Assembly: GCF_014647475.1 (NCBI RefSeq)
Contig: NZ_BMPG01000003.1
Span: forward strand, 469,176-533,175
Source of the DNA: Halocalculus aciditolerans
Lineage (GTDB): Archaea; Halobacteriota; Halobacteria; Halobacteriales; Halobacteriaceae
DNA: 64,000 nt
Direction of reading: 5' to 3'
Part shown: positions 13,320 to 36,448 of the stretch, piece after piece
How the letters are laid out: each line of letters opens with the position of its first letter
Position numbering within the stretch: position 1 is the first letter of the stretch
The notes under the pieces: generated by a model
Told to the model about the DNA's origin: nothing
Databases searched by the model: none
What the model saw: only the letters and a program-made list of their open reading frames with translations
Program-made: the position numbers and the translations under genes

Positions 13320-13333
13320 GGTCCCATGGGAAC

Positions 13334-13340
13334 GTTTATC
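13334..13340 (+). promoter_or_regulatory. TATA-type box of the beta-oxidation operon
   Basis: GTTTATC begins 32 bases before the ATG at 13366. This is the same distance as in both TAXI genes and suggests a leaderless transcript separate from the upstream permease. Confidence 0.45.
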
Positions 13341-13365
13341 GGGGCGGCGGGAGCCTCCTAGAAGT

Positions 13366-15056: not shown

Positions 15057-15105
15057 GCAGGCGCGTTTCCGAGTTTTTAAGCGGGTCGCCACGAGAGTGC
15101 GGTGT

Positions 15106-16242
15106 ATGATAGCGCTCGACGACGAGCAGCGCATGGTACTGGACGCGATTCAGCAGGTCGCGGAGTCCGAGTTCGCGGAGAAGGCCTTCACTTGGCAGGG
15201 CGAGACGCCGTGGGAGAACGTCGAACTCCTCGCGGAGCAGGGCTTCCTCGGCATCAACATCGCGGAGGAGTACGGGGGCGGCGGAATGTCCGAGCTCGAG
15301 GCGATGCTCACCATCGAGGCGGTGGGCGAGGTCTGCCCGGACACGGCGCAGTTCCTCTACGAGCAACAGATGGTCGCGCCGCGCGCCGTCGAGATGTTCG
15401 GGAGCGACGCGGTGAAAGACGAGTATCTGCCGCGGGTGACGGGCGGGGAGACGATGATCGCCGTCGCCATCTCCGAGCCCGAGGCCGGCTCGGACGTCGG
15501 GTCGATGACCACCGAGGTAACCGAAGAGGACGGCGAGCTCGTCCTGAACGGGGAGAAGACGTGGGTGAGTTCGGTGCCGGAGTCGGCGGCGGCGGTGGTG
15601 TGGACGAAGTTCCCGGAGGGGCTCGGCACCGTGCTCCTCGACTTCGAGATGGACGGCGTCGAGGTGGCGGAGCACTACACGAACATGTCGGGGGCGACGC
15701 AGACGCAGTTCTACATGGAGGACGTCACGATTCCGGAGGAGAACGTCCTGACGCGGGGGCCGGAGGCGTTCAAGGCGCAGCTGAAGGCGTTGAACTGGGA
15801 GCGACTGGGGAGTGCGACGCTCGGGAACGCCGTGGCGCGCTGCGCAGTGGACAAGGCGCTCACGTACGCGGAGGACCGCGAGCAGTTCGGCCAGCCCATC
15901 GGGGAGTTCCAGGGGATGGAGTGGAAGTTCGCGGACATGGTGAAGCGTCTCGAAGCGTCGCGCGCGCTCACGTATCGGGCGGCGACGACGGCGGTCGAGC
16001 AGGGCCGCATTCCGGACCGGATGGAGACGAGCATCGCGAAGCTCTACTCGGCGGAGATGGTGGAGGACGTCGTGAGCGAGGCGCTGCAGGTGCACGGGTC
16101 GAACGGCTACCAGCAGGGTCATCCGCTGGAGTATCTGTACCGGATGCAGCGCGGCCGCCGCATCGCCGCGGGGACGGACGAGGTGCAGAAGAACCAGATC
16201 GCGAGCGTCCTGCAGAAACAGGGCCTCCCCGACCTCGCCTGA
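15106..16242 (+). CDS. Acyl-CoA dehydrogenase
   Basis: This 378-residue FAD enzyme introduces the alpha-beta double bond into acyl-CoA. It shows the acyl-CoA dehydrogenase middle-domain motif AISEPEAGSDVGSM, the REQFGQPIGEFQ segment and the C-terminal GSNGYQQGHPLE region, whose Glu sits at the usual catalytic-base position. The usual EGT motif is AGT here. The frame is open from 14917 but overlaps the hydratase; ATG 15106 is chosen because family homology starts there and a TTTA box lies 30 bases upstream. It therefore probably has its own promoter. Confidence 0.9.
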   Translation: MIALDDEQRMVLDAIQQVAESEFAEKAFTWQGETPWENVELLAEQGFLGINIAEEYGGGGMSELEAMLTIEAVGEVCPDTAQFLYEQQMVAPRAVEMFGSDAVKDEYLPRVTGGETMIAVAISEPEAGSDVGSMTTEVTEEDGELVLNGEKTWVSSVPESAAAVVWTKFPEGLGTVLLDFEMDGVEVAEHYTNMSGATQTQFYMEDVTIPEENVLTRGPEAFKAQLKALNWERLGSATLGNAVARCAVDKALTYAEDREQFGQPIGEFQGMEWKFADMVKRLEASRALTYRAATTAVEQGRIPDRMETSIAKLYSAEMVEDVVSEALQVHGSNGYQQGHPLEYLYRMQRGRRIAAGTDEVQKNQIASVLQKQGLPDLA

Positions 16243-17167: not shown

Positions 17168-17169
17168 CC

Positions 17170-17192
17170 GACGTTTCGTATCGAGAAACGTC
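17170..17192. promoter_or_regulatory. Inverted repeat just after IclR-1
   Basis: Perfect arms GACGTTTC and GAAACGTC are separated by seven bases and start three bases after the IclR-1 stop codon. This may be a second operator controlling the hydratase genes from 17410, or a transcription-end hairpin. The GTTTC/GAAAC half-sites are in inverted order relative to those upstream of IclR-1. Confidence 0.4.
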
Positions 17193-17409
17193 CGGCGGGC
17201 ATCATTTCTTACAATTGTACTCCCGTAAAGCAATTCGGTCGGCGTCGACGCCGAGGCCACACGGCGAGGAGAGCCGGCGGCGTCGAGCAGGAACGTTTAT
17301 TACAGATCGAGAAGAATAATGAGTGCCGAGAGTCTTCTGAACCCCGATTTTTTCTCGATAGTCGGGAGACAGGGGCATCGTTTTGTAAGTGGCCGTCCAA
17401 CGGCGGGGT

Positions 17410-18669
17410 ATGGCCGCAGGGACGATAGCCCAGCAGGTGCTATCAGCGCACGCTTCGCGAGACGACACGCCGTCGGCCGGTGAACACGTCACCGTCCGAC
17501 CGGACTGGATACTCTGCCACGACATCTCCGCGTACTCGGGGATGGAGCGGATGGGCGAGCTCGGCTACACCGAAATCGCGCATCCGGAGGACGTCATCAT
17601 GGTCTTCGACCACTACGTGCCGTCGCCGAACGAGCGCATCAGCACGCAGATGAACCAGCTCTCCGAGTGGGCGGACGCGCAGGGCATCGAGCACTTCTTC
17701 CGGTCCGGGAACGGCATCAGCCACAACATCATGAACGAGCAGGGGTACTCCCTGCCCGGTTCTCTCATTCTGGGCGCGGACTCCCACACCGTCACGCACG
17801 GGGCGTTCGGGTCGTTCGCGACCGGTATCGGACACACCGACCTCGGCGAAGTGCTCGGGTCGGGCGAGCTCTGGCTGAAGGTGCCGGAGACGCAGAAAGT
17901 CACGGTGGAAGGGATGCTCCCGGACGGCGTCGGGGCGAAGGACCTCGCGCTCGCGATGATGCGGGAGTTCACGACGACGGGCGCGATCTACGACTCCGTG
18001 GAGTTCTACGGTGAGGCGGTGGAGAACCTCGAGATGCACGAGCGCCACACCCTCTCGAACATCACGGTCGAGATGGGGGCGATGGCGGGTATCGTCCCAC
18101 CGGACGAAGTGACCGAAGAACACCTCGACGGCGTCGCCGTGCGCGACTACACGCCGGTCACGGCGAGCGCGGACGCGACGTACAGCCGGGAGCGCCGAGT
18201 GGACGCGAGCGACCTCGAACCGCTCGTCGCCGCGCCCGCCGCCGTCGACAACGTCTCGCCCGTCACCGACCATGAAGGAACCGCCGTCGACCACGTCTTC
18301 GTCGGCACCTGCAACAACTCCAGCTGGGCGGACATCGAGGCGTTCGCCGACCTCATCGACGGCGAGACCATCGCCCCCGACACCGACCTCGTGGTGACGC
18401 CGGGGACGAAGGAGACGCTGAAGCAGATGAACAGCACGGGCGTCTCGAACGCGATTATGGACGCGGGCGGGATGGTCGGCACGCCCGGCTGTGGCTCCTG
18501 CTTCGGCGCGCACGGCGGCATCCTCGGCGAGAGCGACACCTGCGTCGGGACGATGAACCGCAACTTCCCCGGGCGGATGGGGCCGGGCGAGATCTACCTC
18601 GCCAGTCCGCAGACCGCCGCCGCCGCGGCACTCTACGGCGAGATTACGGACCCCCGGGAGGTGCGCTAG
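17410..18669 (+). CDS. LeuC-type aconitase-family hydratase, large subunit (copy 1)
   Basis: This 419-residue catalytic subunit of a two-subunit aconitase-superfamily hydro-lyase is of the 3-isopropylmalate dehydratase / homoaconitase / dimethylmaleate hydratase type. The [4Fe-4S] ligands are Cys301 (VGTCNNSSW), Cys361 and Cys364 (GTPGCGSCFGAHGG). The ADSHTVTHGAFGSFATGIG substrate loop is conserved. It joins the small subunit directly (stop TAG, then ATG). There is no leuA or leuB beside it, and the catabolic setting argues against leucine synthesis. A convergent isocitrate-lyase-type gene suggests hydration of an unsaturated di- or tricarboxylate before C-C cleavage. Start ATG 17410 fits an AT-rich box about 28 bases upstream. 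Confidence 0.85.
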   Translation: MAAGTIAQQVLSAHASRDDTPSAGEHVTVRPDWILCHDISAYSGMERMGELGYTEIAHPEDVIMVFDHYVPSPNERISTQMNQLSEWADAQGIEHFFRSGNGISHNIMNEQGYSLPGSLILGADSHTVTHGAFGSFATGIGHTDLGEVLGSGELWLKVPETQKVTVEGMLPDGVGAKDLALAMMREFTTTGAIYDSVEFYGEAVENLEMHERHTLSNITVEMGAMAGIVPPDEVTEEHLDGVAVRDYTPVTASADATYSRERRVDASDLEPLVAAPAAVDNVSPVTDHEGTAVDHVFVGTCNNSSWADIEAFADLIDGETIAPDTDLVVTPGTKETLKQMNSTGVSNAIMDAGGMVGTPGCGSCFGAHGGILGESDTCVGTMNRNFPGRMGPGEIYLASPQTAAAAALYGEITDPREVR

Positions 18670-19209
18670 ATGGAGCGCTCTGGGCACGCACGCCTCCTCC
18701 CCGACGACGTCGACACCGACCAGATCATCCCCGGCGAGTACCTGAACACGATCCCCGAAGACCAGCTCGGCGAGCACGTCCTCGAAGGCTACGACGCCGA
18801 CTTCCCGGAGCGCGTCGCGGACGGCGACGTGCTGGTCGCGGGGAAGAACTTCGGGCTCGGGAGTTCGCGGGAGGCCGCGCCCATCGCCATCCGGAACGCC
18901 GGCGTCGCCGCGGTCGTCGCGGAGTCCTTCGCCCGCATCTTCTACCGGAACGCCATCAACGTCGGCCTCCCTATCGCCGTCGTCCCCGGAATCACCGAAC
19001 ACGTCTCCGAGGGCGACGTCGTCCGCGTCGACCTCACCGAGGGCCGCGTCGAGAACACGACGACGGGGAAATCGTTCTCCATCAGCCCGCTCCCCGACGA
19101 CCTCACCGAAATCCTCGAAGCCGGCGGGCTCGTCCCGCTCCGCCAGCGACAGCGAACAGCGGAGCGAGAGGCAGGTCGAGGTGCGGGACGGAACGAAGAA
19201 GGCGAGTAG
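18670..19209 (+). CDS. LeuD-type aconitase-family hydratase, small subunit (copy 1)
   Basis: This 179-residue swivel subunit partners the large subunit ending at 18669. DVDTDQIIPGEYL and GLGSSREAAPIAIRNAG are the family's substrate-binding motifs. The C-terminal tail is rich in charged residues beyond the usual end. Only three bases separate its stop from the end of the convergent lyase gene at 19213. Confidence 0.85.
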   Translation: MERSGHARLLPDDVDTDQIIPGEYLNTIPEDQLGEHVLEGYDADFPERVADGDVLVAGKNFGLGSSREAAPIAIRNAGVAAVVAESFARIFYRNAINVGLPIAVVPGITEHVSEGDVVRVDLTEGRVENTTTGKSFSISPLPDDLTEILEAGGLVPLRQRQRTAEREAGRGAGRNEEGE

Positions 19210-19212
19210 GCG

Positions 19213-20103
19213 TTAGTTCTCGGCTTCCCGGTCGGCGTAGCGGTCTTTCGCGGCGGCGTACTTCGCTTCGAGGGCTTCGACGTCGCCCATCTCGGTTATC
19301 TCGTCGCGTTCCTCCCACTCGACCATGCCGTCGAGGATGTTCTCCTGGCTGCGCTCGTCGATGAGCGTCTCGTAGGTGTCCTGGATGGTCTTCAGGGCGG
19401 CCTTGAAGGAGTCGGAGGGGTAGATGGCCATGTCGTAGCCGATGTCGGTGAGTTCCTCGGCGGGGATGGGCGGCGTCTTCCCCTTCGCGGCGAGGTTGGC
19501 GAGGAGCGGGCTCGGGGCCTCGCGGCAGACGCGCTCCATCTCCTCGCGCTCGGTCGGCGCTTCGACGAAGAGGACGTCCGCGCCCGCTTCCTTGTATAGT
19601 TGGGCGCGGCGGATGGCTTCGTCGAGGCCGTCGACGGCGAGCGCGTCGGTTCGCGCGATAACGAGGAAATCCTCGCTCTCGCGGGCGTCCGTCGCCGCCT
19701 CGATCTTCGCCGCGAACTCAGGTGCAGAGATGATGTCCTTGCCTTCGAAGTGCCCGCAGCGCTTCGGGAACGTCTGGTCCTCCAGCTGGATGGCGTTCGC
19801 GCCGGCGCGCTCGTACTCGCGGACCGTGCGGTAGGCGTTGAGTTCGTTGCCGTAGCCGGTGTCGCCGTCGACGATGAGGGGGACGTCGAGGACGCCGGCC
19901 ATCTGACGGGCGCGCCGCGTCATCTCCGTCATCGTCGTCAGTCCGATATCGGGGCCGCCGTGGACGGAGGAGGAGACGCAGGAGCCGGACATGTACACGG
20001 CTTCTGCGCCCGCTTGCTGTGCCATTCGGGCGGTCAGCGCGTCCCACGCGCCGATCGCCATCAGTAACTCGTCACGCTCGATGAGCTCGCGAAGCGACGT
20101 CAC
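19213..20103 (-). CDS. Isocitrate lyase/PEP mutase-family C-C lyase
   Basis: This enzyme of about 296 residues is of the methylisocitrate / 2,3-dimethylmalate lyase type. It would split a 2-hydroxy di- or tricarboxylate into pyruvate (or glyoxylate) plus another acid. The catalytic segment PKRCGH (Cys116) is present, together with metal-binding DGDTGYGN and LEDQ. The frame is open to 20130, but GTG 20103 is preferred because homology begins at SLRELIERDELL and a GTTTTTGG box lies about 28 bases upstream. It is the last gene of a minus-strand series after a second LeuC/LeuD pair, and converges on the first pair. The exact substrate is unknown. Confidence 0.82.
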   Translation of the reverse strand: MTSLRELIERDELLMAIGAWDALTARMAQQAGAEAVYMSGSCVSSSVHGGPDIGLTTMTEMTRRARQMAGVLDVPLIVDGDTGYGNELNAYRTVREYERAGANAIQLEDQTFPKRCGHFEGKDIISAPEFAAKIEAATDARESEDFLVIARTDALAVDGLDEAIRRAQLYKEAGADVLFVEAPTEREEMERVCREAPSPLLANLAAKGKTPPIPAEELTDIGYDMAIYPSDSFKAALKTIQDTYETLIDERSQENILDGMVEWEERDEITEMGDVEALEAKYAAAKDRYADREAEN

Positions 20104-20176
20104 GGGTGGAGAGTACGCGTGCGACACCAAAAACGTGCGCTTCTCGCGCGGAGAAGAAACGGAAGCGAAGCCGGGG

Positions 20177-20695
20177 TCAGTCGTCGGTGTGGCCGAGTTT
20201 CCGGCGGGTGTAGGGTTCGAGGCCGCCCTGGTCGACGAGGGACTGGAGGAAGTCGGGGAGGGGGTCGGCGTCGTGGGTTTCGCCGGTGGTGTGGTCGACG
20301 ACGCGGCCGTCGCCGAGGTCGAGGTGGACCTCGTCGCCGTCGGCGATGCGGTCGGCGTCGGGGCAGACGAGGAGCGGGAGGCCGATGTTGATGGCGTTCC
20401 GGAAGAAGATGCGGGCGAAGGATCGGGCGACGACGCCGGAGACGCCCGCGCCCCGGAGGGCGACGGGGGCGTGTTCGCGGGAGGAGCCGCTGCCGAAGTT
20501 CTCGCCGGCGACGACGAAGTCGCCGGGTTCGACGCCCTCGGCGAAGTCGGGGCGGTGGTCGGCGAAGGCGTGCGCGCCGAGGTCGGCGGGGTCGCTGGAG
20601 ACGAGGAAGCGCGAGGGGATGATCTGGTCGGTGTCGACGTCGTCGCCGAACGTCCAGGCGCGACCGGGAGTCACCGGGTCGCGGACGTCGCTCAT
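20177..20695 (-). CDS. LeuD-type hydratase small subunit (copy 2)
   Basis: This 172-residue small subunit of a second aconitase-family hydratase carries DVDTDQIIPSRFL and GSGSSREHAPVALRGAG. Its ATG overlaps the stop of the large subunit (ATGA, 20692-20695), so the pair is made together. The substrate loop (SRFLVSSDPADLG) differs clearly from copy 1 (GEYLNTIPEDQLG), suggesting a different substrate rather than a simple duplication. Confidence 0.85.
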   Translation of the reverse strand: MSDVRDPVTPGRAWTFGDDVDTDQIIPSRFLVSSDPADLGAHAFADHRPDFAEGVEPGDFVVAGENFGSGSSREHAPVALRGAGVSGVVARSFARIFFRNAINIGLPLLVCPDADRIADGDEVHLDLGDGRVVDHTTGETHDADPLPDFLQSLVDQGGLEPYTRRKLGHTDD

Positions 20696-22014
20696 GGCTG
20701 TGCCTCCGCGGGGGTGACGACGTCGTCGTCGTAGCGGGTCGTTTCGACCGTTCGCGGGTCGGTAATCTCGCCGTAGAGCGCGGACGCGCCGACGGTGGCG
20801 GGGCTGGCGAGGTAGACGCTGCTGTCCATGGAGCCTTCGCGGCCGGGGAAGTTCCGGTTCGCCGTGGCGAGGCAGACGTCGCCGTCGCCGAGGACGCCGT
20901 CGTGCGTGCCGAAACAGGGGCCGCAGCCCGCGCTCTGGACGATCGCGCCGGCGTCGACGAAGGTGTCGAAGACGCCGGTGTCCAGCATGCGGCGGTAGAT
21001 CGCTTTCGAGGCGGGGACGACGACCATGCGCGTGCCGGGGGCGAGGGTCTCGCCGTCGAGGATGTCGGCGACGACGCGGACGTCCTCGTACCGGCCGTTC
21101 GTGCAGGTGCCGACGAAGAGCTGGTCGACGGGGGTGCCGGCGACCGCGTCGACGTCGACGGCGTTCTCGGGGTTCGAGGGCTTCGAGACCTGCGGCGCGA
21201 GGTCGGCGGCGTCGTAGGTGTGGACGGCGGCGTAGTCGGCGTCGTCGTCGGGCGCGAGAGAGACGTCGAAGCTCGATTCGGTGCGGCCGGTCTGGCGGGC
21301 GAGAAAGCGCGCGGTGCGCTCGTCGGGTTCGACGAGACCCGCCTTCCCGCCCATCTCGATGGCCATGTTCGAGAGGACGAGGCGCTCGTGAATCGGGAGG
21401 TCCTGAACGGCGGAGCCGCCGTACTCGGCCGCCCGGTAGGTCGCGCCGTCGAAGCCGACGTCGCCGATGAACCGGAGGATGAGGTCTTTCGCGTAGACGC
21501 CGTCCGGGAGCGTGCCCTCGACTTCGAAGCGCACGGAGTCGGGCACGCGGAACCAGAGGTCGCCGGTCGCCATGGCGGTGCCGAGGTCGGTGGAGCCGAC
21601 GCCGGTGCCGAACGCGCCGAGGCCGCCGAAGGTCGTGGAGTGGGAGTCCGCGCCGACGACGAGGTCGCCGGGTTCGGCGAAGCCGTGCTCGACGAGGAGC
21701 TGGTGGCAGATGCCGTCGCCGACGTCGAACTGGACCGCGCCGAACTCGGCGGCGAAGTCGCGGACGGCGTTGTGGTTGTTCGCCGCCTGCACGCCGTCCG
21801 CGGGCGCGTGGTGGTCGATGGTGATGACGGTGTTCTCGGGGTCGGCGAGCGGGCCGTCGCCGTCGGTGACGCCGCGGAACACCTCGAAGGTGAGCGGGCC
21901 GGTGACGTCGTGCGTGAGCATCGCGTCGACTTCGGCTTCGACGTAGTCGCCCGCGCGGGCGTCGGTGTTCGACTTCTCGGAGAGTATCCGTTCGGCGAGT
22001 GTTTTTCCGGTCAT
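20692..22014 (-). CDS. LeuC-type hydratase large subunit (copy 2)
   Basis: This 440-residue large subunit has [4Fe-4S] ligands Cys304 (VGTCTNGRYED), Cys364 and Cys367 (SAGCGPCFGTHDG) and the GADSHSTTFGGLGAFGTGVG loop. The frame is open far upstream with arginine-rich sequence, which is the shadow of the lyase gene. ATG 22014 overlaps that gene's stop as ATGA and begins the homologous MTGKTLAERIL. Copies 1 and 2 share the family but are quite different in sequence. It is part of the minus-strand series with a CoA-transferase and lyases. Confidence 0.85.
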   Translation of the reverse strand: MTGKTLAERILSEKSNTDARAGDYVEAEVDAMLTHDVTGPLTFEVFRGVTDGDGPLADPENTVITIDHHAPADGVQAANNHNAVRDFAAEFGAVQFDVGDGICHQLLVEHGFAEPGDLVVGADSHSTTFGGLGAFGTGVGSTDLGTAMATGDLWFRVPDSVRFEVEGTLPDGVYAKDLILRFIGDVGFDGATYRAAEYGGSAVQDLPIHERLVLSNMAIEMGGKAGLVEPDERTARFLARQTGRTESSFDVSLAPDDDADYAAVHTYDAADLAPQVSKPSNPENAVDVDAVAGTPVDQLFVGTCTNGRYEDVRVVADILDGETLAPGTRMVVVPASKAIYRRMLDTGVFDTFVDAGAIVQSAGCGPCFGTHDGVLGDGDVCLATANRNFPGREGSMDSSVYLASPATVGASALYGEITDPRTVETTRYDDDVVTPAEAQP

Positions 22015-22958
22015 GGCTCTGCGTCGCTGGCGACGGTGTCGAGGACGCGGCGGGCGGTGCCGCCCATGAGGACGTGGCTCGTCGCGCCGAGGTCGAGGCG
22101 GTCGCTGATCGAGTGGGCGACCGCTTCGGTCCGCTCGAAGTCGAGGCCCGTGTCGACGCCCGTCTCGGTGAGCATGTGCGCGAGGTCTTCTGTCGGTGTG
22201 TTCCCGACGCCGGAGAGGCCCTCGGGGAGGACGACGCCGCCGCCGAGCCCGCAGACGGAGGCGTCGAAGCGGTCGACGCCGCACTGCATCGCGGCGAGCG
22301 TGTTCGCGAGGCTCATCCCGTTCGTGTCGTGGAGGTGGAGGCCGGCGTCGACGCCGGGGTGGCGGTCGAAGACCTCGGTGAACATCGCGTCCACCTGCAC
22401 GGGGTTCGCGAGCCCCATCGTCGTCGCGAGCGTCACTTCGTCGACGCCCGCCTCGACAACGCGGTCCACGACCTCGAGCGTGCGTTCCTGTGGGATGCGG
22501 CCCTCGTAGGGGCAGTAGAAGCTCGTTCCGATGCCGGCCTCCACGAGGACGTCCGTCCCCGCGGCGAGGTCGACGATTTGCTCGACTTCGTCGAGGATTT
22601 CGCTCGTGCTCATCGACTGGTTCTTCCGGCTGTACGACTCGCTCACGGTGACGAGCGCGTTCACCTTATCGACGCCGGCGTCGAGCGCGCGCTCCATCCC
22701 GACCGCGTTCGGGACGAGCGCGCGGTACGTCACGTCGTCGCGGCGCGTAATCCGCCGGGCGACTTCGTCGGCGTCCCGGAGGTTCGGCACGGCCTTCGGA
22801 TGCGTGAAGGACGTGAACTCGATTTCGTCCACGCCGGTCGTCGCGAGGTCGTCGATGATGGAGGCTTTTTCGTCCGTTGGGACGAAGCGGTCGAGGCGCT
22901 GGAAGCCGTCGCGCGGCAGCATCTCGACGACGTGCACGGAGTCGGGCAGGTCGAGCAT
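22011..22958 (-). CDS. HMG-CoA lyase-like DRE-TIM enzyme with altered active site
   Basis: This 315-residue TIM-barrel lyase resembles HMG-CoA lyase. It keeps the metal and substrate residues in MLPRDGFQ (Arg16, Asp17), EIEFTSF (Glu47), HLHDTNG (His208, His210) and VGNTPTED (Asn253). Two positions conserved in the mammalian enzyme differ: the GDTIG aspartate is Thr (ATTMG), and the catalytic loop GLGGC has Gly241 instead of Cys. It may act on another acyl-CoA such as a citramalyl- or methylmalyl-type thioester, or work differently. It is coupled to LeuC copy 2 (ATGA) and abuts the CoA-transferase. Confidence 0.75.
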   Translation of the reverse strand: MLDLPDSVHVVEMLPRDGFQRLDRFVPTDEKASIIDDLATTGVDEIEFTSFTHPKAVPNLRDADEVARRITRRDDVTYRALVPNAVGMERALDAGVDKVNALVTVSESYSRKNQSMSTSEILDEVEQIVDLAAGTDVLVEAGIGTSFYCPYEGRIPQERTLEVVDRVVEAGVDEVTLATTMGLANPVQVDAMFTEVFDRHPGVDAGLHLHDTNGMSLANTLAAMQCGVDRFDASVCGLGGGVVLPEGLSGVGNTPTEDLAHMLTETGVDTGLDFERTEAVAHSISDRLDLGATSHVLMGGTARRVLDTVASDAEP

Positions 22959-24170
22959 CTAGATCACCCCCTCGGATTCGAGGTCGCGCCGGGTTTCGGC
23001 GTCGTAGCCGAGGAAGTCGCCGTAGACGGCGTCGTTGTGCGCGCCGAGCGCCGGCCCGAGGTGGTCGACGCGGCCGGGCGTGTCACCGAACTTCGGGGTG
23101 ACGCCCTGCACGAGGCCGGAGCCGAGGTCGTCGTCGTCGACGTCGACGACGGCGTCTCGCGCCCGATAGTGGGGGTCCTCGACGATATCGGCGACGTTGT
23201 AGATGGGCGCGATGGTCGCGCCCGTGTCCTCGAAGACGTCGAGGACGGTCTCGCGGTCGCGGTCGGCCATCCAGTCGGCGATGACGGCGTCGAGTTCCTC
23301 GACGTGTTCGACGCGTTTCTCGTTCGTCGCGAAGCGCGAGTCGTCCTTCAGGTCGGGGCGGTCGATGGCGTCGAAGACCCGCATCGCCGTCGGCTGCGTC
23401 GACGCGGAGACGGCGACGTACCGGCCGTCGCCCGTCTCGTAGACGTTCCGCGGCGCGCTCGACGTCGAGCGGTTCCCGGACCGGCGGTCGACGTCGCCGA
23501 GCTGGTCGTAGCGGAGCGGCTGCGGGCCGAGGATGGAGAAGATGGGTTCGATGAGGCTCGTGTCGACGACCTGTCCGCCGCCGCCGTTCACCTCGCGGTT
23601 CCAGAGCGCGAACATCACGGAGAACGTCGCGTACATCGCGGCGACGCCGTCCGCCAGCCCGGTCGGCGGGAGGAGGGGTTCGCGGTCCGGGAAGCCGTTG
23701 AGGAACGCGAAGCCGCTCATCGACTCGGCGAGCGTCCCGAACCCGGGGCGTTCCGCGTACGGGCCGGTCTGTCCGAACCCGGAGATGCGGCACGCGACGA
23801 GGTCCTCGTTCACCTCGTCGGTGAGGCGCTCGGGGTCGAGCCCCCAGCGTTCGAGCGTCCCCGGTCGGAAGTTCTCCACGAGGACGTCCGCCTCCCGGAG
23901 GAGGTCCTCGAAGACGACGCGGCCCGCGTCGGTCGAGATGTCGAGCGTCACCGACTGCTTGTTGCGCCCGAGGTATTTCCACCAGAGGCCCGCGCCGTCC
24001 TTCTGGGGGCCGAACCGCCGGAGGTGGTCGCCGTCGGGGTGTTCGACCTTTATCACGGTCGCGCCGAAGTCGCCGAGGAGGCGACCGACGGTGCCCGCGG
24101 AAATCATCGTGCCTGCTTCGACGACGACGAGCCCGTCGAGGGGCCCGTCCGTCCCGGTAGTAGTCTGCAT
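22959..24170 (-). CDS. Family III CoA-transferase (CaiB/BaiF type), second copy
   Basis: This 403-residue CoA-transferase shows FGATVIKVEHPDGDHLR, LGRNKQSVTLDIST and the catalytic Asp in GGQVVDTSLIEP. Its stop is adjacent to the ATG of the lyase. It is only distantly similar to the family III enzyme at 11235. Between hydantoinase and lyase, it likely activates the free acid released by ring opening and deamination. The ATG at 24170 is chosen because the upstream open frame is a shadow of the hydantoinase. Confidence 0.85.
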   Translation of the reverse strand: MQTTTGTDGPLDGLVVVEAGTMISAGTVGRLLGDFGATVIKVEHPDGDHLRRFGPQKDGAGLWWKYLGRNKQSVTLDISTDAGRVVFEDLLREADVLVENFRPGTLERWGLDPERLTDEVNEDLVACRISGFGQTGPYAERPGFGTLAESMSGFAFLNGFPDREPLLPPTGLADGVAAMYATFSVMFALWNREVNGGGGQVVDTSLIEPIFSILGPQPLRYDQLGDVDRRSGNRSTSSAPRNVYETGDGRYVAVSASTQPTAMRVFDAIDRPDLKDDSRFATNEKRVEHVEELDAVIADWMADRDRETVLDVFEDTGATIAPIYNVADIVEDPHYRARDAVVDVDDDDLGSGLVQGVTPKFGDTPGRVDHLGPALGAHNDAVYGDFLGYDAETRRDLESEGVI

Positions 24171-24250
24171 GTCGTGGTGTGTGTTCGGTGGGTGTCGGGT
24201 GGTGCGGCCGGCCGCGAAGGCCAGCGGAGCGGTGCGCGCGAGCGGACGCC

Positions 24251-25651
24251 TCAGAGAGGCCGGTCGATGTGCGTGCCGTAGCCCTTCTCGCCGACGACGT
24301 CGCCGTCGTCGAAGGCGAGCTGGCCGCGGACGACGGTCTGCGTCGGCCAGCCCGTGACCGCCGTGCCCTCGTAGGGCGAGTAGTCGGGCGCGCCCTGGAG
24401 GAGTTCCGGGGTGATGGTCTTCGTCTCGTCGAGGTCGACGACGGCGAGGTCGGCGTCGCTCCCCACTCTGACTGTGCCCTTCTTCGGGTGGAGGTCGAAG
24501 GCCTTCGCCGTGTTCGTCGACGTGACTTCGACGGCGCGCTCCAGGCTGATGCGGCCCTCGTTCACGCCCTCGGAGAGGATGAGCGGGAGCATCGCCGGCG
24601 TGCTCGGGAAGCCCGGCAGGCTGTCGGGGACGTCGTCGCCGATCTTGTCCGCTGCGAGGTTCGCGCAGTGGTCCGTCCCGATCGTCGAAATCGTCCCGTC
24701 CGCGACGCGCTCCCAGAGCGTCTCCTGGTCCTCCTTCGAGCGGACGGGCGGGTTGACGTTCATGCGCTCGTCGCACTCCTCGGTCGTGAGGGTGAGGTAG
24801 TGCGTGCAGGTCTCGCCGGTGAGGCGGTAGCCGGCGTTCCGGAGCGCCGCGAGCTCGTCCGCCGTCTTCCCCGAGGAGATGTGGACCGCATAGAAATCGT
24901 CGTCGTAGTCGTGTTGTTTGGCGAGCGACGCCCCCGAGACCATGCTCTGGGTCTCGGCGTAGCCGGGGAACTGGTCGACGAGCGTCTGGTAGTCGCGGTA
25001 TTCGGCGTCGTCGTCGCGTTCGACGTCGAGGTAGGGGTTGTCGCCGAGCGAACTCGTGATCTCGACGTTCTCCGAGTGGTAGCCGAGCGTCGTGGGCGCG
25101 TCGACGTCCGCGAGCGCCTGAATGAAGGCGTCGCCGAAGTCGTCCCGCATCTCGCAGTCGACGCCGAACTTCTCCGTCGCGACGTACTTGTAGTTCATAT
25201 ACCACTTGAAAGAGGTGATACCGAGGTCCTCGACGATAGTCGGGATTTCCTCGACGTGCTCGAAGGAGAGCAGGCCGAGCGAGAAGAAGTAATCGTGGTA
25301 GTAGTTCTCCTCGGCCTGCTCGAAGTAGTCGCCCATGATCTCCTCGTAGGAGCCGGGGCGGCGGAAGTAGTTCCCGATGGTGGTGACGCCGCCGACGAGG
25401 TCGGCGCGGGATTCGGATTCGCCGTCGGCGTCGAGGCCGCGGTAGATGCCGTGGTGGGTGTGCGGGTCGATGGCTCCGGGGAGGACGTGCTTCCCGGACG
25501 CGTCGATTTCGGTCTCGCCGGAGAGCGTGCCGGGTTCGGCGACGGCGGCGATCTTCTCGCCCGACGCCGCGACGTCAGCTTCGAAGGTGCCGTGTTCGGG
25601 CGTGACGACCGTGCCGTTCGAGACGACGAGGTCGTACTCGCGGTCAGTCAT
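24251..25651 (-). CDS. Dihydropyrimidinase/hydantoinase-type cyclic amidohydrolase
   Basis: This 466-residue metal-dependent amidohydrolase opens cyclic amides or imides, forming an N-carbamoyl or amidated acid. It has the full metal set: His64/His66 (DPHTH), carbamylatable Lys149 (SFKW), His192 (GYHSEN), His257 (AVHISS) and Asp327 (GTDH). ATG 25651 is chosen; it overlaps the end of the amidase gene by eight bases. Pairing with an N-carbamoyl amidase-like gene is typical of hydantoin or pyrimidine degradation. An enamidase-like role on a six-membered lactam is also possible. Confidence 0.85.
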   Translation of the reverse strand: MTDREYDLVVSNGTVVTPEHGTFEADVAASGEKIAAVAEPGTLSGETEIDASGKHVLPGAIDPHTHHGIYRGLDADGESESRADLVGGVTTIGNYFRRPGSYEEIMGDYFEQAEENYYHDYFFSLGLLSFEHVEEIPTIVEDLGITSFKWYMNYKYVATEKFGVDCEMRDDFGDAFIQALADVDAPTTLGYHSENVEITSSLGDNPYLDVERDDDAEYRDYQTLVDQFPGYAETQSMVSGASLAKQHDYDDDFYAVHISSGKTADELAALRNAGYRLTGETCTHYLTLTTEECDERMNVNPPVRSKEDQETLWERVADGTISTIGTDHCANLAADKIGDDVPDSLPGFPSTPAMLPLILSEGVNEGRISLERAVEVTSTNTAKAFDLHPKKGTVRVGSDADLAVVDLDETKTITPELLQGAPDYSPYEGTAVTGWPTQTVVRGQLAFDDGDVVGEKGYGTHIDRPL

Positions 25652-26309
25652 CGAGGGCCTCCACATACGCCTCGACTTCCTCGGTCTCCAGGACTTCGGC
25701 GTACTTCATCCAGAGGTCCATCAGGCCGATCTTGTGCGACGCCTCGATGCGGTCGAAGATGCACTCCTGGGGGAGGAGGACGTCGAAGCCGTTCTGCTTC
25801 GCGTCGATGGCGGTCGCGCGCACGCAGCCGCTCGTGGAGTTCCCGACGACGATGACGGAGTCGTGGCCGCCACGGACGAGCCGGGAGAGGAGGTCCGTGC
25901 CGTAGAACGCGCTCGCGTACGATTTGTCGATGACCGTCTCGCCGTCCGCGGGAGCGACGGGGTCGACGATTCGGAGGTCGTCGTGGTCGGGGTCGTCGTA
26001 GCTCGACGGGACGACGCGCGTGTAGATGACGGGAACGTCGTGGTCGCGCGCGAAGTCGAGGAACGGCTCGATGTAGTCGATGGCGTCCCACGCGATCTCC
26101 CCCATCGCGGTGCGGTGTTTCTCGACGGCGTCGAGGATGGGTTCGTCGTCGCCGACGATGAGCTCCTGCATGTCGATGACGAGGACCGCGGGGTTCTCCC
26201 CGAGCCCGCGGGACTCCCAGGAGGACGCGCCCTCCTCGTCGTAGCCCGCTTTCGAAATCACTTGCTTGTCCCGCTCCGTGAGTAGATCTTCCCAGATACG
26301 CTCGGTCAT
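25644..26309 (-). CDS. Isochorismatase-family amidohydrolase (N-carbamoylsarcosine amidase-like)
   Basis: This 221-residue cysteine hydrolase has the triad Asp46 (VLVIDMQE), Lys129 (VIDKSYASAF) and Cys162 (NSTSGCVRATAIDA). The N-terminal YDEEGASSWESRGLG region resembles N-carbamoylsarcosine amidase. It probably releases ammonia, or carbamate, from the ring-opened product of the neighbouring hydantoinase. Members of the same superfamily act as RutB in pyrimidine use and as maleamate amidase in nicotinate use. ATG 26309 is preferred to GTG 26324. Confidence 0.85.
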   Translation of the reverse strand: MTERIWEDLLTERDKQVISKAGYDEEGASSWESRGLGENPAVLVIDMQELIVGDDEPILDAVEKHRTAMGEIAWDAIDYIEPFLDFARDHDVPVIYTRVVPSSYDDPDHDDLRIVDPVAPADGETVIDKSYASAFYGTDLLSRLVRGGHDSVIVVGNSTSGCVRATAIDAKQNGFDVLLPQECIFDRIEASHKIGLMDLWMKYAEVLETEEVEAYVEALDD

Positions 26310-26360
26310 GCTTGACAACCTCACACTACACTTTCGCCCGGGTTCGCTTAAACCTACTTC

Positions 26361-27347
26361 TTACACCGGTGTCGGCGCGAACGCGTCGAGGACGGCTTCG
26401 GCGAGGTCGCGGTCGGCGTTTGACGGCGCGCGCACGATGGGGAGGTCGACGCCCATCGCGCGGACCGCGTCGAGTTCCTCCCGGGCGTCTTCGGGGGTGC
26501 CCCAGATTGCGACGGTGTCGAGGAAGTCGTCGCCGAGGTGCGCTACGCCCGCCTCGGTGCTCGGGGCGTCGCGGACTGCCGCGACGTCGTCGCCGAACCC
26601 GGCCTCCTCGGCGGCGCGGCCGTAGTAGCCGGGGACGTCGCGGAGGTAGTAGGCGACGTGTTCGGCGGCCGCTCGGCGGGCGACGGCGGGGTCGTCGTCG
26701 ACGGCGGCGAGGACGTACATCGCCACGTCGATGTCCGCGACGTCGCGGTCGGCGCGTTCAGCGCCCGTCGCCAGCCACTCCTTCGCCTCGGCGAACTGCT
26801 CGCGTGGGTAGAGGTTCGGCAGCCAGCCGTCGCAGTACTCGCCGGTGAGGCGGACGTTCCCGGGGCCGAGCGCGCCGTTATAGATGGGGACGTCGGCGCG
26901 TTCGGGTTCGAAGGCGTCCCAGAAGCTCGTGCGCGCGGGGGTGAAGAACTCGCCGTCGAACGCCTCGGGCGTCCCAGACAGGTAGCGGCGGACGAGTTCG
27001 ACGTATTCGGCGAGTCGGGGGAGCGGGCGGTCGAAGGGAACGCCGTGAAAGTCCTCGACGACGCCGGGGTGGGCGACGCCGAGGCCGAGAATGGCGCGGC
27101 CGTCGGAGTGCGCGTCGAGGGTGGCGACGGCCTGCGCGAGCGCCGCCGGCGTCCGCGAGAAGACGTTCACGATGCCCGTGCCGAGTCGGACGTCGTCCGT
27201 GACGGTCGCCCAGCGCTCCAGTTTCCCGAACGCGGTCTTCCCCTGGCCTTCGGCGGCCCAGACGCTCTCGTAGCCGAGTGCGTCCGCGCGCCGGACGAGG
27301 TCGAGGTCGTCGCGGAGCGCGAACAGGACGCCGGTCCGTTCGGTCAT
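26361..27347 (-). CDS. LLM-class flavin (probably F420-type) oxidoreductase
   Basis: This 328-residue TIM-barrel oxidoreductase of the luciferase-like superfamily carries ADALGYESVWAAEG at the N-terminus and RLGTGIVNVFSRTPAALA, typical of F420-dependent archaeal members. It could reduce or oxygenate a ring substrate. It heads the minus-strand series and is 51 bases upstream of the amidase. An LLM enzyme beside an isochorismatase-type hydrolase recalls RutA/RutB, but the similarity is of family only. The open frame continues to 28928; ATG 27347 is where homology starts. Confidence 0.8.
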   Translation of the reverse strand: MTERTGVLFALRDDLDLVRRADALGYESVWAAEGQGKTAFGKLERWATVTDDVRLGTGIVNVFSRTPAALAQAVATLDAHSDGRAILGLGVAHPGVVEDFHGVPFDRPLPRLAEYVELVRRYLSGTPEAFDGEFFTPARTSFWDAFEPERADVPIYNGALGPGNVRLTGEYCDGWLPNLYPREQFAEAKEWLATGAERADRDVADIDVAMYVLAAVDDDPAVARRAAAEHVAYYLRDVPGYYGRAAEEAGFGDDVAAVRDAPSTEAGVAHLGDDFLDTVAIWGTPEDAREELDAVRAMGVDLPIVRAPSNADRDLAEAVLDAFAPTPV

Positions 27348-27466: not shown

Positions 27467-27491
27467 GGCGGTGTGGGTCGAACCAGCGTGC

Positions 27492-28907
27492 ATGGTCGAG
27501 CAAGCAGAGAGGAGCGGCGAGCGCGTGGTATCGGTCGCGGACGTATCGTTCGACGTCGAGACGGACGTCCTCGTCGCGGGCGGCGGCGGCACGGGTCTCG
27601 TCGCGGCGCTCGCCGCGTCCGAGAACCCGGACCTGACCGTGACAGTGCTGGAGAAGAGCCCGGACGTCGGCGGGAACACGTCGCTCTCGACGGGGATGGT
27701 GCCGGCGGCGGGGACGCGCCTCCAGCGCGAGGCGGGCATCGAGGAGTCCCCTGCGGACATGGCGCGAGACATCTTGGAGAAGAACGACTACACGGCGGAC
27801 GAGGCGATGGTCCGGCGTCTCTGCGCGGAGAGCGCGGACCTCGTCCACTGGCTCGTGGACGACTGGGACGTATCGCTCTCGCTCGTGGACGATTTCAAAT
27901 ACCCCAAACACTCCGAGTATCGGATGCACGCGCCGCCGGGGCGGAACGGGGCGAACCTCGTCGCCGAGTTGCGAGCGCGCGTCGAGGAGACACCGAACGT
28001 CGAACTCCTGACGAACACGCCGGTGACGACGCTCGTAGCGGACGACGCCGGGGTTGTCGGCGTCGTCGCAGGCGACCGGCGCTCGGAAGCCATCGCCGCA
28101 GAGAAGGTAATTCTCGCGACGGACGGGTTCGGGGGGAACCGGGAGATGATCACGGAGTGGTGTCCGGAGATCGAGGACGCGGTGTACTTCGGCGCGGACG
28201 GGAACACGGGGGACGGCATCCGGTGGGGGGCGGCGCTCGGCGGCGAGCTCGCCTGCATGGACGCCTATCAGGGGCACGCGACGGTCGCGTCGGGACAGCT
28301 CTCGACCTATGCGGTGGTGATGAACGGCGGCGTGCTCGTGAACGAGCGCGGGGAGCGGTTCGGCGACGAGTCCGCGGGGTACTCGGCGTTCGCCGTCGAC
28401 GTCCTCAGGCAGCCGGGCGGGCACGCGTTCGAACTGTTCGACGAGCGCATCTTCGAGCGCCTCCGGGGCGAGTTCGACGACTTCGACGAGGCCGTCGAGA
28501 GCGGCGTCTACCACGAGGCCGAGTCGGTCGAGGCGCTCGCGGAGACGCTGGGGTTCGACGCCGACGCCGCGGCCGAAGCCGTCGAGAGATATAACGCCGC
28601 GGCGGCGGCGGGCGAGCCGGACGAGACGGGGCGAGAAGACGGCGTGCACGCGCTCGAAGCGCCGTTCTACGGCGCGAAGGTGACGGGCGCGCTCTTCCAC
28701 ACGCAGGGCGGGCTGGTCGTCGACGAGGACGCGCGCGTCCTCCGCGAGGACGGGACGGTCGTGGAGAACCTCTACGCGGGCGGCGGGACGGCGTGCGGCA
28801 TCAGCGGGCACGGGCCGGGCGGCTACCTGAGCGGGAACGGGCTCACGACGGCGCTCGGGTTCGGGCGGCTCGCGGGCGTCGACGCCCGCGAGCGGTGCCG
28901 AAACTAA
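27492..28907 (+). CDS. FAD-binding dehydrogenase (fumarate reductase flavoprotein / 3-ketosteroid dehydrogenase superfamily)
   Basis: This 471-residue FAD_binding_2 protein has an N-terminal dinucleotide-binding motif (VLVAGGGGTGLVAALAAS) and the C-terminal FAD-closing segment NLYAGGGTACGISGHGPGGYLSGNG. Relatives desaturate or reduce C-C bonds next to carboxyl groups, for example fumarate, urocanate or tricarballylate. It is divergent from the LLM gene and precedes the Liv importer. It would introduce or reduce a double bond in the imported acid. GTG 27471 is an alternative start; ATG 27492 fits the TTTA box. Confidence 0.8.
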   Translation: MVEQAERSGERVVSVADVSFDVETDVLVAGGGGTGLVAALAASENPDLTVTVLEKSPDVGGNTSLSTGMVPAAGTRLQREAGIEESPADMARDILEKNDYTADEAMVRRLCAESADLVHWLVDDWDVSLSLVDDFKYPKHSEYRMHAPPGRNGANLVAELRARVEETPNVELLTNTPVTTLVADDAGVVGVVAGDRRSEAIAAEKVILATDGFGGNREMITEWCPEIEDAVYFGADGNTGDGIRWGAALGGELACMDAYQGHATVASGQLSTYAVVMNGGVLVNERGERFGDESAGYSAFAVDVLRQPGGHAFELFDERIFERLRGEFDDFDEAVESGVYHEAESVEALAETLGFDADAAAEAVERYNAAAAAGEPDETGREDGVHALEAPFYGAKVTGALFHTQGGLVVDEDARVLREDGTVVENLYAGGGTACGISGHGPGGYLSGNGLTTALGFGRLAGVDARERCRN

Positions 28908-28937
28908 CGGATAACTGGCAAAAAACACCGCAAATCA

Positions 28938-28957
28938 TTTAGTGGGTGTCCCACCCA
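28938..28957 (+). promoter_or_regulatory. Promoter and palindrome upstream of the Liv importer
   Basis: A TTTA box at 28938-28941 is followed immediately by overlapping inverted repeats GTGGG-tgt-CCCAC and TGGGT-gtccc-ACCCA (28942-28957). This places a candidate operator between the box and the ATG at 28973. Confidence 0.45.
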
Positions 28958-28972
28958 TAGGTACATGCTACC

Positions 28973-30256
28973 ATGAGCAAGCGTGAGCAGTCTGCAGTGT
29001 CGAGTCGGCGTCGATACCTCAAACTCGCCGGTGTCTCGGGAGTCGCGGCCCTCGCGGGATGTTCCGGCGGTGGCGGCGAAACAACGACCTCGACGTCGGG
29101 CGGCACGACGACGGGGACGACGAACGGCGGCGGGAACGTCGAGGAAGTCATCATCGGATCGAACCACCCGCTCTCGGGCGGGCTGGCGTCGACGGGCGTG
29201 AAGATGGACAACGCGGTGAAACTCGCCGCGCAGCGGAAGAACGAAGCCGGCGGCATCGAGGCGCTCGGCGGCGCGGACGTGAAGGTCATCAGCGGCGACA
29301 ACCAGGGCGAGCAGTCCCTCGGCGGGCAGGTGAGCAACGACCTCATCGACCAGGGCGCGTCGGTCCTGACCGGCTGCTACTCCTCGCCGGTGACGACGGC
29401 GGCGACGCAGGCGGCGGAGCGCGCGCAGACGCCGTTCGTCGTCTCGGTCGCCGCCGACGACGCCGTCCTGCAGGGCCGCGGGCTCGACTACTCGTACCGG
29501 CCGCAGCCGCCCGCGAAGCGGATGGCGAGGGACTACGCGGAGTACGTCCCCGAGGTCATCCGGCAGAACGGCGGCACCATCGAAACCGCCGGGTTGTTCT
29601 ACGTGAACAACAGCTACGGGCAGGCGATTCGGGAGAGCCTGAACGAGTACCTCCCGCAGAACGGCGTCGAGGTCACCGTCGAAACGGCGCTGGAGTACGG
29701 CGCGGACAGCGCGGACACGCAGGTGACGAAGCTCAAGCAGAGCGACCCGGACACCGTCATCGCGACGACGTACGTCCCCGGCGGCGTCCTGCTCTCGCAG
29801 GCGATGCAGGACCAGGACTACCGCCCGCCGCACCTGACGGCGTGCGCGAGCGCGACGTTCCTCGACGACGAGGCGCTCGCCGACATCGGCGACTTCGCGA
29901 ACGGCGTCCTCGACAACAACTACGCGCTGAACAACACCATCGACAAGACCGCGGCCGTCCGCGAGGCCTTCCGGAACCAGTACGATAAGGGGATGGACGG
30001 ATCGACGGGGATGGCGTACGTCGCCACGGAGGTCATCATTCAGGCCATCGAGGAAACGGGGAGTACGGACCCCGAAGCCATCAACGAGACGCTCAGCTCG
30101 ATCCAGGTCGACGACCACATCGCGGCGATGGGCACCATCGACTTCCAGGAGAACGGCGAGAACGCGAACGCGCTCGCGCCCGTCAATCAGGTGCAAGACC
30201 TCGCCGCAAAAGTCGTCTACCCCGAGGAGTACGCGGAAGCACAGCCCCAGATCTAA
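28973..30256 (+). CDS. livK: Branched-chain-amino-acid-type ABC substrate-binding lipoprotein
   Basis: This 427-residue extracellular receptor is of the LivK/amide-binding family. A twin-arginine signal (SRRRYLKLAG) with lipobox LAGC is followed by a Ser/Thr/Gly linker and the GSNHPLSGGLASTG N-lobe start. In haloarchaea this family binds not only amino acids but also amides, urea and aromatic or dicarboxylic acids. It begins a five-gene importer operon that runs without a break into two MmgE/PrpD genes, so the ligand is probably their substrate or its precursor. Confidence 0.88.
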   Translation: MSKREQSAVSSRRRYLKLAGVSGVAALAGCSGGGGETTTSTSGGTTTGTTNGGGNVEEVIIGSNHPLSGGLASTGVKMDNAVKLAAQRKNEAGGIEALGGADVKVISGDNQGEQSLGGQVSNDLIDQGASVLTGCYSSPVTTAATQAAERAQTPFVVSVAADDAVLQGRGLDYSYRPQPPAKRMARDYAEYVPEVIRQNGGTIETAGLFYVNNSYGQAIRESLNEYLPQNGVEVTVETALEYGADSADTQVTKLKQSDPDTVIATTYVPGGVLLSQAMQDQDYRPPHLTACASATFLDDEALADIGDFANGVLDNNYALNNTIDKTAAVREAFRNQYDKGMDGSTGMAYVATEVIIQAIEETGSTDPEAINETLSSIQVDDHIAAMGTIDFQENGENANALAPVNQVQDLAAKVVYPEEYAEAQPQI

Positions 30257-36440: not shown

Positions 36441-36448
36441 CACCGGTT

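Follow-up and report, generated by a model that had tools for sequence, protein, structure and literature searches.

A conserved gene unit of haloarchaea with a putative role in the degradation of cyclic imides

Which compound is degraded by a run of genes that joins ring-opening enzymes to enzymes of organic acid cleavage on contig NZ_BMPG01000003.1 of Halocalculus aciditolerans (assembly GCF_014647475.1)? The question concerns a window of 64,000 nucleotides (positions 469,176 to 533,175 of the contig), which is the whole stretch of DNA analysed here. Gene families were called with Pfam and NCBIfam models. All eight minus-strand open reading frames that an original prediction had placed at 19213-27347 were present (Table 1), and the catalytic residues claimed for the amidohydrolase AMI, the hydantoinase-like HYD, LeuC and the isocitrate lyase-type protein ICL (KRCGH) were found at the numbering given there. 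Seven of these genes (20177-27347), encoding a luciferase-like protein (LLM), AMI, HYD, a CoA-transferase, a lyase of the hydroxymethylglutaryl-CoA (HMG-CoA) lyase family (HMGL), LeuC and LeuD, are a conserved, often plasmid-borne catabolic unit. It is tentatively proposed, at somewhat below an even chance, that this operon degrades a five-membered cyclic imide via an alkylmaleate, a 2-alkylmalate and a CoA ester. The operon appears to combine known enzyme families in a new way, and its pathway class is likely imide catabolism; no description of this gene combination was found in the open-licence literature searched.

Conservation of the gene unit in haloarchaea

The sample comprised 391 genomes of the class, and this genome is included in the carrier counts. 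Relatives of HYD with at least 57% identity were present in 42 of them and with at least 70% identity in 39, the closest named one belonging to Salarchaeum sp. III (87%). HMGL was carried by 40 genomes, 38 of which were shared with the 39 HYD carriers; the exceptions were G366 (contig edge) among the HYD carriers and G086 and G185 among the HMGL carriers. The Fisher p value of 3e-49 for this co-occurrence is overstated, because the species are related and not independent.

Gene neighbourhoods were taken from 33 named loci and 28 further stretches, which after removal of repeats gave 52 loci on 51 contigs with 46 HYD orthologues of at least 70% identity (the window's own HYD not counted). These stretches reach about 10 kb to each side and are often cut by contig ends, so that the neighbour counts are lower bounds. 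AMI adjoins HYD in all 46 loci, the CoA-transferase gene follows in 40, HMGL, LeuC and LeuD are each found in 39, and the complete run AMI-HYD-CoA-transferase-HMGL-LeuC-LeuD is intact in 39. Since the order from AMI to LeuD recurs in 39 of 46 loci, the gene set is more than a chance arrangement. Within 12 kb of HYD, the LLM gene was detected in 41 loci, the gene of a FAD-dependent enzyme (FAD) in 39 and that of the substrate-binding protein (SBP) of an ABC importer in 26; a SnoaL/NTF2 gene, the partner of LLM, is near 39 units. Two of the seven incomplete runs (L041, L048) end at a contig edge, and a third, on a 15-kb contig of a metagenome-assembled genome (L052), has leuC2/leuD2 and an ICL-type gene further along in place of the acid module of the operon.

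The expectation that eight genes form the unit and stay together in haloarchaea was thus borne out for seven; the ICL-type gene does not regularly belong to it, since one was detected at up to 15 kb from HYD in 7 of the 46 stretches (9 of 46 with wider stretches, which add L086 and L088). The interval originally drawn also left out the divergent plus-strand genes at 27471-37264, of which those of the FAD enzyme, the ABC importer and the MmgE/PrpD proteins recur with the unit.

In the downstream half of the run, the intergenic distances are 46 bp (ICL/LeuD), -4 (LeuD/LeuC), -4 (LeuC/HMGL) and 0 (HMGL/CoA-transferase); in the upstream half they are 80 bp (CoA-transferase/HYD), -8 (HYD/AMI) and 51 (AMI/LLM) if HYD and AMI start at their ATG codons, the start codons of ICL, HYD and AMI being uncertain by some residues. 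The unit was detected on plasmids of Haloferax, Halorubrum, Halomarina and Natrinema, and both plasmids with typing are called non-mobilizable. On plasmid pBNX82-2 of Haloferax alexandrinus the order is MmgE-MmgE-livFGMH-SBP-FAD / NTF2-LLM-AMI-HYD-CoA-transferase-HMGL-LeuC-LeuD-MFS. One contig of Haloferax massiliensis (63531 bases; L044 and L045) contains two whole copies of the unit in opposite orientation and with equal identities to the window, which represent an inverted duplication or an assembly artefact.

A candidate route and its enzymes

According to the proposed route, HYD would open the imide ring to a half-amide, and AMI would release ammonia from it, so that a 2-alkylmaleate remains, citraconate being the most likely one. 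Hydration by LeuCD would give a 2-alkylmalate, probably (R)-citramalate. The CoA-transferase would activate the latter to the CoA ester, and cleavage of the ester by the HMGL-type lyase would yield acetyl-CoA and a 2-oxoacid, which is likely to be pyruvate. The LIV-type ABC importer might take up the ring or its succinimide form, the FAD enzyme might dehydrogenate a succinimide to the maleimide, and the MmgE/PrpD enzymes might interconvert stereoisomers. The weakest step is that of the F420-type LLM, which might make or unmask the imide, for example from a hydroxylactam. One conserved pathway of ring opening, amide hydrolysis, CoA activation, hydration and C-C cleavage had been anticipated by the original prediction and is supported, as is the cyclic imide, which was one of its two substrate options.

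The main argument for a ring that, like an imide, yields a dicarboxylate is provided by the carbon modules with which HYD relatives are found. Module A, that of this window, consists of CoA-transferase-HMGL-LeuC-LeuD. Module B has a CoA-transferase together with a lyase of the CitE type, and a HYD (63-66% identity) and an AMI (46-50%) of its own; the sole model match of this lyase was RipC/Ccl, the lyase of itaconate degradation (153 bits, cut-off 375), and the module accompanies a paralogous HYD-AMI pair in Halomarina BND7, L056 and L086. Module C comprises leuC2, leuD2 and the ICL-type lyase together with SnoaL-LLM and a HYD of 34-36% identity, in some cases extended by an acyl-CoA ligase and an acyl-CoA dehydrogenase (G265, BND7) or by AtuA-DUF4387 (G305, BND7); an own AMI copy is present in L086, L087 and BND7, and none was seen in L052 and G265. 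On the plasmid of Halomarina BND7 (L124 and L129, ~260-298 kb), a region of about 38 kb holds three HYD-AMI pairs together with modules A, B and C, CoA-transferase-HMGL-LeuCD being about 31 kb away from the pair orthologous to that of the window. Since cleavage of a hydroxy-dicarboxylate is predicted for each of the three, the ring probably yields a dicarboxylate, as an imide does. The AtuA family protein and DUF4387 genes of module C are situated between LLM and HYD (L086:14461-16148; L129:1-593).

HYD possesses the binuclear metal ligands of D-hydantoinases and dihydropyrimidinases (H64xH66, K149, H192, H257, D327); in the alignment, K, H, H and D are kept in 68 of 68 rows and HxH in 55, with gaps in the other 13. 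Its best matches in PDB and NCBIfam were D-hydantoinases, and it scored below the equivalog model TIGR02033 for D-hydantoinase/dihydropyrimidinase (258.8 vs 393.25 bits). The AMI triad D46/K129/C162 is kept in 59 of 59 rows with one gap at D. LLM and AMI share their folds with enzymes of the Rut pyrimidine pathway, but pyrimidine chemistry of the RutA/RutB type, which had been considered originally, finds no support, as both proteins remained far below the respective cut-offs (LLM 20.6 vs 498.3 bits for RutA; AMI 26 vs 377.95 bits for RutB). The best NCBIfam models of LLM are of the F420 type, none at cut-off.

The Fe-S cysteines of the large subunit are present in LeuC (C304/C364/C367), and LeuD exceeded the cut-off of TIGR02087 (187.3 vs 108.95 bits). 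The best solved relative of LeuD is the small subunit of an isopropylmalate/citramalate isomerase (3vba, E 2.8e-51; homoaconitase 2pkp, E 2.5e-37). At the loop that we take to determine substrate specificity, 40 of 40 orthologues have F[LI]V[SL], which resembles YLVY of 3vba and not YLRT of 2pkp. Aconitase-superfamily hydratases act on a maleate core, and this preference suggests a maleimide-type ring. A separate LeuC (C1:786636) is encoded in the same genome, with a further HMGL-like gene (C1:792200) at a distance of about 4 kb, and the LeuCD of the operon therefore looks like an extra copy; its regular partner is the CoA-transferase/HMGL pair. A route from isonicotinate or citrazinate to aconitate was rejected, because the LeuD loop is of the alkyl type and not the Arg loop of homoaconitase, and the literature search on this route was empty.

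No NCBIfam equivalog model reached its cut-off for the CoA-transferase, a solved relative of which is a succinate--hydroxymethylglutarate CoA-transferase (9br7, E 1.1e-46). The Cys of the signature GLGGC, as seen in 1ydo and 6nds, is catalytic in HMG-CoA lyase; in HMGL it is replaced by Gly (GLGGG) in 40 of 40 orthologues, which argues against a plain HMG-CoA lyase. Of these 40 sequences, all have the motif RDG and 39 have HLHDTNG; in Cys-bearing bacterial HMGLs the loop is shorter by three residues. Among five bacterial HMGLs aligned, four, all encoded after a CoA-transferase, have the Cys and one, from Aminobacter, lacks it. The latter (L110:7983-8984, Aminobacter sp. MSH1) has GYGGG and lies near acyl-CoA dehydrogenase and CoA-transferase genes.

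The (R)-citramalyl-CoA lyase of Chloroflexus (Friedmann 2007) reportedly belongs to the HMGL family. Both a succinyl-CoA:(R)-citramalate CoA-transferase (EC 2.8.3.20) and an (R)-citramalyl-CoA lyase (EC 4.1.3.46) are known enzymes according to excerpts of PMC8307300. Such a pair of a CoA-transferase and an enzyme of the HMG-CoA lyase family would resemble that of the operon, which is linked in addition to LeuCD and ring-opening genes. Because citraconate and (R)-citramalate fit both the closest solved relative of LeuD and this known pair, methyl is the likeliest substituent, and citraconate/(R)-citramalyl-CoA is regarded as the likeliest carbon skeleton.

At the positions of Arg402, His504 and Arg544, which we take to be the substrate residues of the Shewanella fumarate reductase, the FAD enzyme has Tyr, Phe and Tyr, a replacement shared by all 40 archaeal and all 3 bacterial homologues. 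Lacking the residues that hold two carboxylates, it would fit a neutral ring substrate without free carboxylates. The PDB relatives of mmgE1 are IRG1 (aconitate decarboxylase type) and IDS-epimerase, and no NCBIfam model matched the mmgE genes at E <= 1e-40. In the itaconate cluster of Cupriavidus and Pseudomonas, a MmgE/PrpD protein is described as an (S)-(R)-methylsuccinate isomerase that is inactive on citraconate and mesaconate (PMC12290011, in the part consulted). By family likeness, this precedent suggests that succinate-level stereoisomers enter the pathway.

The same itaconate and methylsuccinate cluster resembles the operon in that a CoA-transferase, a C-C lyase and a MmgE/PrpD protein act on branched C5 dicarboxylates, but its lyase is given as specific for (S)-citramalyl-CoA in the passages on it (PMC12290011, PMC9875883). 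Pseudomonas putida with the S-specific cluster used neither (R)-citramalate nor citraconate in the growth data excerpted from PMC9875883, so that an R route would be complementary. Nicotinate degradation by HxnM/HxnN of Aspergillus nidulans likewise proceeds through an imidase, amide hydrolysis and a hydroxy-dicarboxylate; in the relevant section of PMC9304392, HxnM is closest to HpPgdA/PuuE-type enzymes and its substrate is a six-membered ring, whereas the operon combines a hydantoinase-type enzyme and an isochorismatase-type amidase with a CoA-transferase/lyase module. If the imide proposal is true, imide ring opening would be joined to a citramalyl-CoA-type cleavage in one, often plasmid-borne, operon, and the S-specific itaconate route would have a counterpart for citraconate and (R)-citramalate. 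It would also offer a testable common function for haloarchaeal genes labelled 'dihydroorotase', 'hydroxymethylglutaryl-CoA lyase' or '3-isopropylmalate dehydratase'.

Related gene sets occur in bacteria. Methylobacterium nodulans has ICL-AMI-SBP-liv genes-MmgE-FAD-MmgE-HYD in a row, Variovorax has SBP-liv genes-MmgE-FAD-MmgE-CobW-HYD-AMI, and in Antarctobacter ICL / AcnA-NTF2-HYD-AMI is followed 5 kb on by an LLM gene; Shinella and Hydrogenophaga have related sets. Identities to the window are 45-47% for FAD (Methylobacterium, Variovorax) and 32-35% for the five HYDs. Five of the 10 annotated AMI loci have a HYD-like gene together with an ICL-type, AcnA or MmgE/PrpD gene, a share that is biased upward because the 11 loci opened, out of 27 listed, were partly picked for an ICL-type gene (the eleventh, from Rhizobium jaguaris, had no annotation). 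One more of the 10 has ICL-type, MmgE and FAD genes on a stretch that ends before any HYD, and a HYD-like neighbour was absent in 4. Five of 30 listed HMGL relatives were opened as well; a CoA-transferase is encoded directly upstream in four of them and LeuCD in one. This last one, Cupriavidus necator N-1, has CoA-transferase-HMGL-LeuC-LeuD in the same order beside the binding protein of a tricarboxylate transporter, with no ring-opening genes nearby and with a LeuC only 32% identical to that of the window.

Competing explanations and the ICL-type gene

Several observations weigh against the imide proposal, and some of them would suit other explanations. The HYD-AMI pair might degrade hydantoin or another cyclic ureide via an N-carbamoyl amino acid, with CoA-transferase-HMGL-LeuCD taking the deaminated skeleton. 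This is unlikely, although it would agree with the D-hydantoinase matches of HYD and with the best PDB match of AMI, N-carbamoylsarcosine amidohydrolase (1.6e-23, vs 4.9e-20 for 3ot4/3uao, presumably maleamate amidase). A sister clade of HYD (56-63% identical; L060-L063, L091, L099) has no AMI nearby and, in the two loci scanned (L060, L063), adjoins urocanase and aromatic-amino-acid/histidine ammonia-lyase genes, so that the substrates of HYD relatives may include hydantoin or imidazolone rings. About 2.8 kb after LeuD, hut genes begin in Haloferax alexandrinus; histidine catabolism as a part of the unit was rejected, and these genes were kept outside it as counter-evidence. However, a ureide route is disfavoured by the lack of any aminotransferase or ammonia-lyase gene within the unit of the window or between MmgE and LeuD in Haloferax alexandrinus, by the missed dihydropyrimidinase and RutB equivalog cut-offs, and by the downstream modules, which all look like dicarboxylate chemistry, the direct product of an imide. 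L063 additionally has an MttB-like methyltransferase and an N-methyltryptophan-oxidase-like gene, and catabolism of methylated histidine is possible there.

HMGL exceeded the cut-off of the hydroxymethylglutaryl-CoA lyase model NF004283 (277.9 vs 246 bits), and the loss of the Cys does not fix the substrate, because the four CoA-transferase-linked bacterial HMGLs keep it. HMGL could hence be a true HMG-CoA lyase: a 3-methylglutaconate-type skeleton, derived from a six-membered ring or a leucine-like acid, would be hydrated to HMG, activated by the CoA-transferase, in line with its relative 9br7, and split into acetyl-CoA and acetoacetate. With Gly for Cys in every orthologue, and since we know of no LeuCD-type enzyme that hydrates glutaconates, this is considered improbable; a plain HMG-CoA/leucine route was rejected for the missing Cys. 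The likeness of the operon lyase to (R)-citramalyl-CoA lyase, in turn, is one of description, and the identity of the substrate is inferred throughout.

The two halves of the operon might also be mere neighbours, HYD-AMI serving nitrogen supply and the acid module an unrelated dicarboxylate such as citraconate. CoA-transferase-HMGL(-LeuCD) does occur with no HYD-AMI in the vicinity, namely in Cupriavidus, Priestia, Paraburkholderia, Caballeronia and G086/G185 (in the latter two as a pair without HYD or LeuCD in the stretch), and HYD-AMI pairs are found with other modules. In L056, L086, L087 and L088, CoA-transferase-HMGL-LeuCD is detached from the HYD-AMI pair; it lies at most 30 kb away in L086, L087 and L088 and is not in the stretch of L056. 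Nevertheless, the near-perfect co-occurrence across the genomes and the contiguity of the halves in 39 of 46 loci make this explanation quite unlikely. The roles of LLM and SnoaL are left unexplained by the imide proposal, and no match to the SnoaL/NTF2 gene was obtained in this genome though LLM is kept. The G185 match to HMGL was counted with one internal TAG. CoA-transferase-HMGL pairs (50% and 67-68% identical) lie in L134 and L135, without HYD, AMI or LeuCD in the stretch.

In Eubacterium barkeri, nicotinate fermentation ends with dimethylmaleate hydratase and dimethylmalate lyase. The original prediction had taken LeuCD and the ICL-type lyase for the last two steps of such a nicotinate- or methylcitrate-like route, with eight genes in one pathway. 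This pairing of LeuCD with ICL is not supported, and the explanation as a whole is held to be improbable, slightly more so than any other weighed here. ICL is methylisocitrate-lyase-like (308.8 vs 354.4 bits for the PrpB equivalog TIGR02317) with KRCGH present, and its PDB matches include the 2,3-dimethylmalate lyase 3fa3; moreover, ICL-type genes are part of bacterial HYD-AMI clusters, in two cases alongside AcnA. Nicotinate fermentation has no CoA step, and its LeuCD-type hydratase and ICL-family lyase find their likeness in leuC2/leuD2 and ICL of the window, whereas the LeuCD of the operon partners HMGL. The closer ICL orthologues (67-90%) adjoin leuC2/leuD2 in L052, L086/L113, L087, G265 and Halomarina BND7, and in the window the stops of leuD2 and ICL converge 3 bp apart. 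ICL-type matches at E <= 1e-90 were obtained in 6 of 391 genomes, adjoining leuC2/leuD2 in this window, G265, G305 and G349, though not in G276 (68% identical, no query genes near) and G322 (55%, beside acyl-CoA dehydrogenase and CoA-transferase genes and about 9 kb from a leuD2-like gene). ICL is thus predicted to work with leuC2/leuD2 (17389-19209), a pair that the original prediction had left aside, rather than with the operon. In L057, L066, L089, L090 and L096, a distant ICL-type gene (45-49% identical) is directly convergent on the LeuD of the unit, and some species may therefore use such an enzyme with it.

Upstream enzymes of nicotinate fermentation (enamidase, 2-methyleneglutarate mutase) were absent among the window genes scanned, the genome not being searched. 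An enamidase-type nicotinate route was rejected, since it leaves AMI without a function and these genes include no methyleneglutarate mutase.

Possible pigment substrates and neighbouring genes

A wider idea, which goes beyond the imide proposal and is itself improbable, is that the island degrades maleimides and succinimides from broken chlorophyll, heme or bilin rings, with separate hydrolase pairs feeding separate lyases. Methylmaleimide would lead to (R)-citramalyl-CoA, and disubstituted maleimides would lead to 2,3-dialkylmalates, which the ICL-type lyase would cut, its acid product entering the adjacent beta-oxidation set. A single pigment would give several ring types, to which the three HYD-AMI pairs in one island of Halomarina would correspond. 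A breakdown scheme for chlorophyll and heme names methyl, methyl ethyl and methyl vinyl maleimide and hematinic acid, and the excerpts of PMC7318184 that give it also state that maleimides and hematinic acid were reported from senescent leaves and lake sediments and that chlorophyll is made and degraded at a scale of 10^12 kg yearly; that study itself, as far as excerpted, detected hematinic acid but not maleimides. 2-Methyl and 2-ethyl-3-methyl maleimides are mentioned as standards for fossil chlorophylls in a passage of PMC9620498. If the pigment idea is true, the fate of chlorophyll pyrrole rings would be open to direct test.

Two candidates connected with this idea were rejected. A tetrapyrrole link via hemC near HYD-AMI of Shinella did not persist, since the wider stretch has amino-acid-type genes and no other tetrapyrrole gene. 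Glutarate as the lyase product, derived from hematinic acid, had no support from the scores of the acyl-CoA dehydrogenase of the window, which met no model (183 vs 470 bits on the glutaryl-CoA dehydrogenase model).

Table 1. Genes of the unit and of its surroundings in the window
Gene	Position	Strand	Assignment
LLM	26361..27347	-	luciferase-like, F420-type oxidoreductase; PF00296
AMI	25644..26324	-	isochorismatase-family amidohydrolase, likely ATG at 26309, predicted half-amide hydrolase; PF00857
HYD	24251..25666	-	hydantoinase/dihydropyrimidinase-like cyclic amidohydrolase, likely ATG at 25651, predicted imidase
COAT	22959..24170	-	class III (CaiB/BaiF) CoA-transferase; PF02515
HMGL	22011..22958	-	HMG-CoA-lyase-family C-C lyase without signature Cys; NF004283
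LEUC	20692..22014	-	aconitase/isopropylmalate-dehydratase large subunit; C304/C364/C367
LEUD	20177..20695	-	small subunit, isopropylmalate/citramalate-isomerase type; best PDB match 3vba, FLVS loop
ICL	19213..20130	-	methylisocitrate-lyase-like (PEP mutase/ICL family); predicted partner leuC2/leuD2
leuC2	17389..18669	+	second LeuC-type large subunit
leuD2	18670..19209	+	second LeuD-type small subunit, loop YLNT, convergent with ICL
FAD	27471..28907	+	flavocytochrome c/fumarate-reductase-fold flavoprotein without three substrate residues
SBP of LIV-type ABC importer	28973..30256	+	PF13458
livH, livM, livG, livF	30320..33761	+	permeases and ATPases of the LIV-type ABC importer; livG assigned through homology with annotated neighbours
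mmgE1	33758..35074	+	MmgE/PrpD family; PF03972/PF19305
mmgE2	35071..36384	+	MmgE/PrpD family
IclR-family regulator	36503..37264	+	no model at cut-off
CoA-transferase III, EamA transporter, 3-hydroxyacyl-CoA dehydrogenase, enoyl-CoA hydratase, acyl-CoA dehydrogenase	11235..16242	+	set of the beta-oxidation type, upstream of leuC2/leuD2
TRAP-type DctM transporter and NMT1-like binding protein	8018-11065	-	

The plus-strand genes at 11235-19209, an IclR gene included, constitute a second run for acid degradation, which is convergent on the ICL-type gene. The end of the window coincides with the end of the contig.

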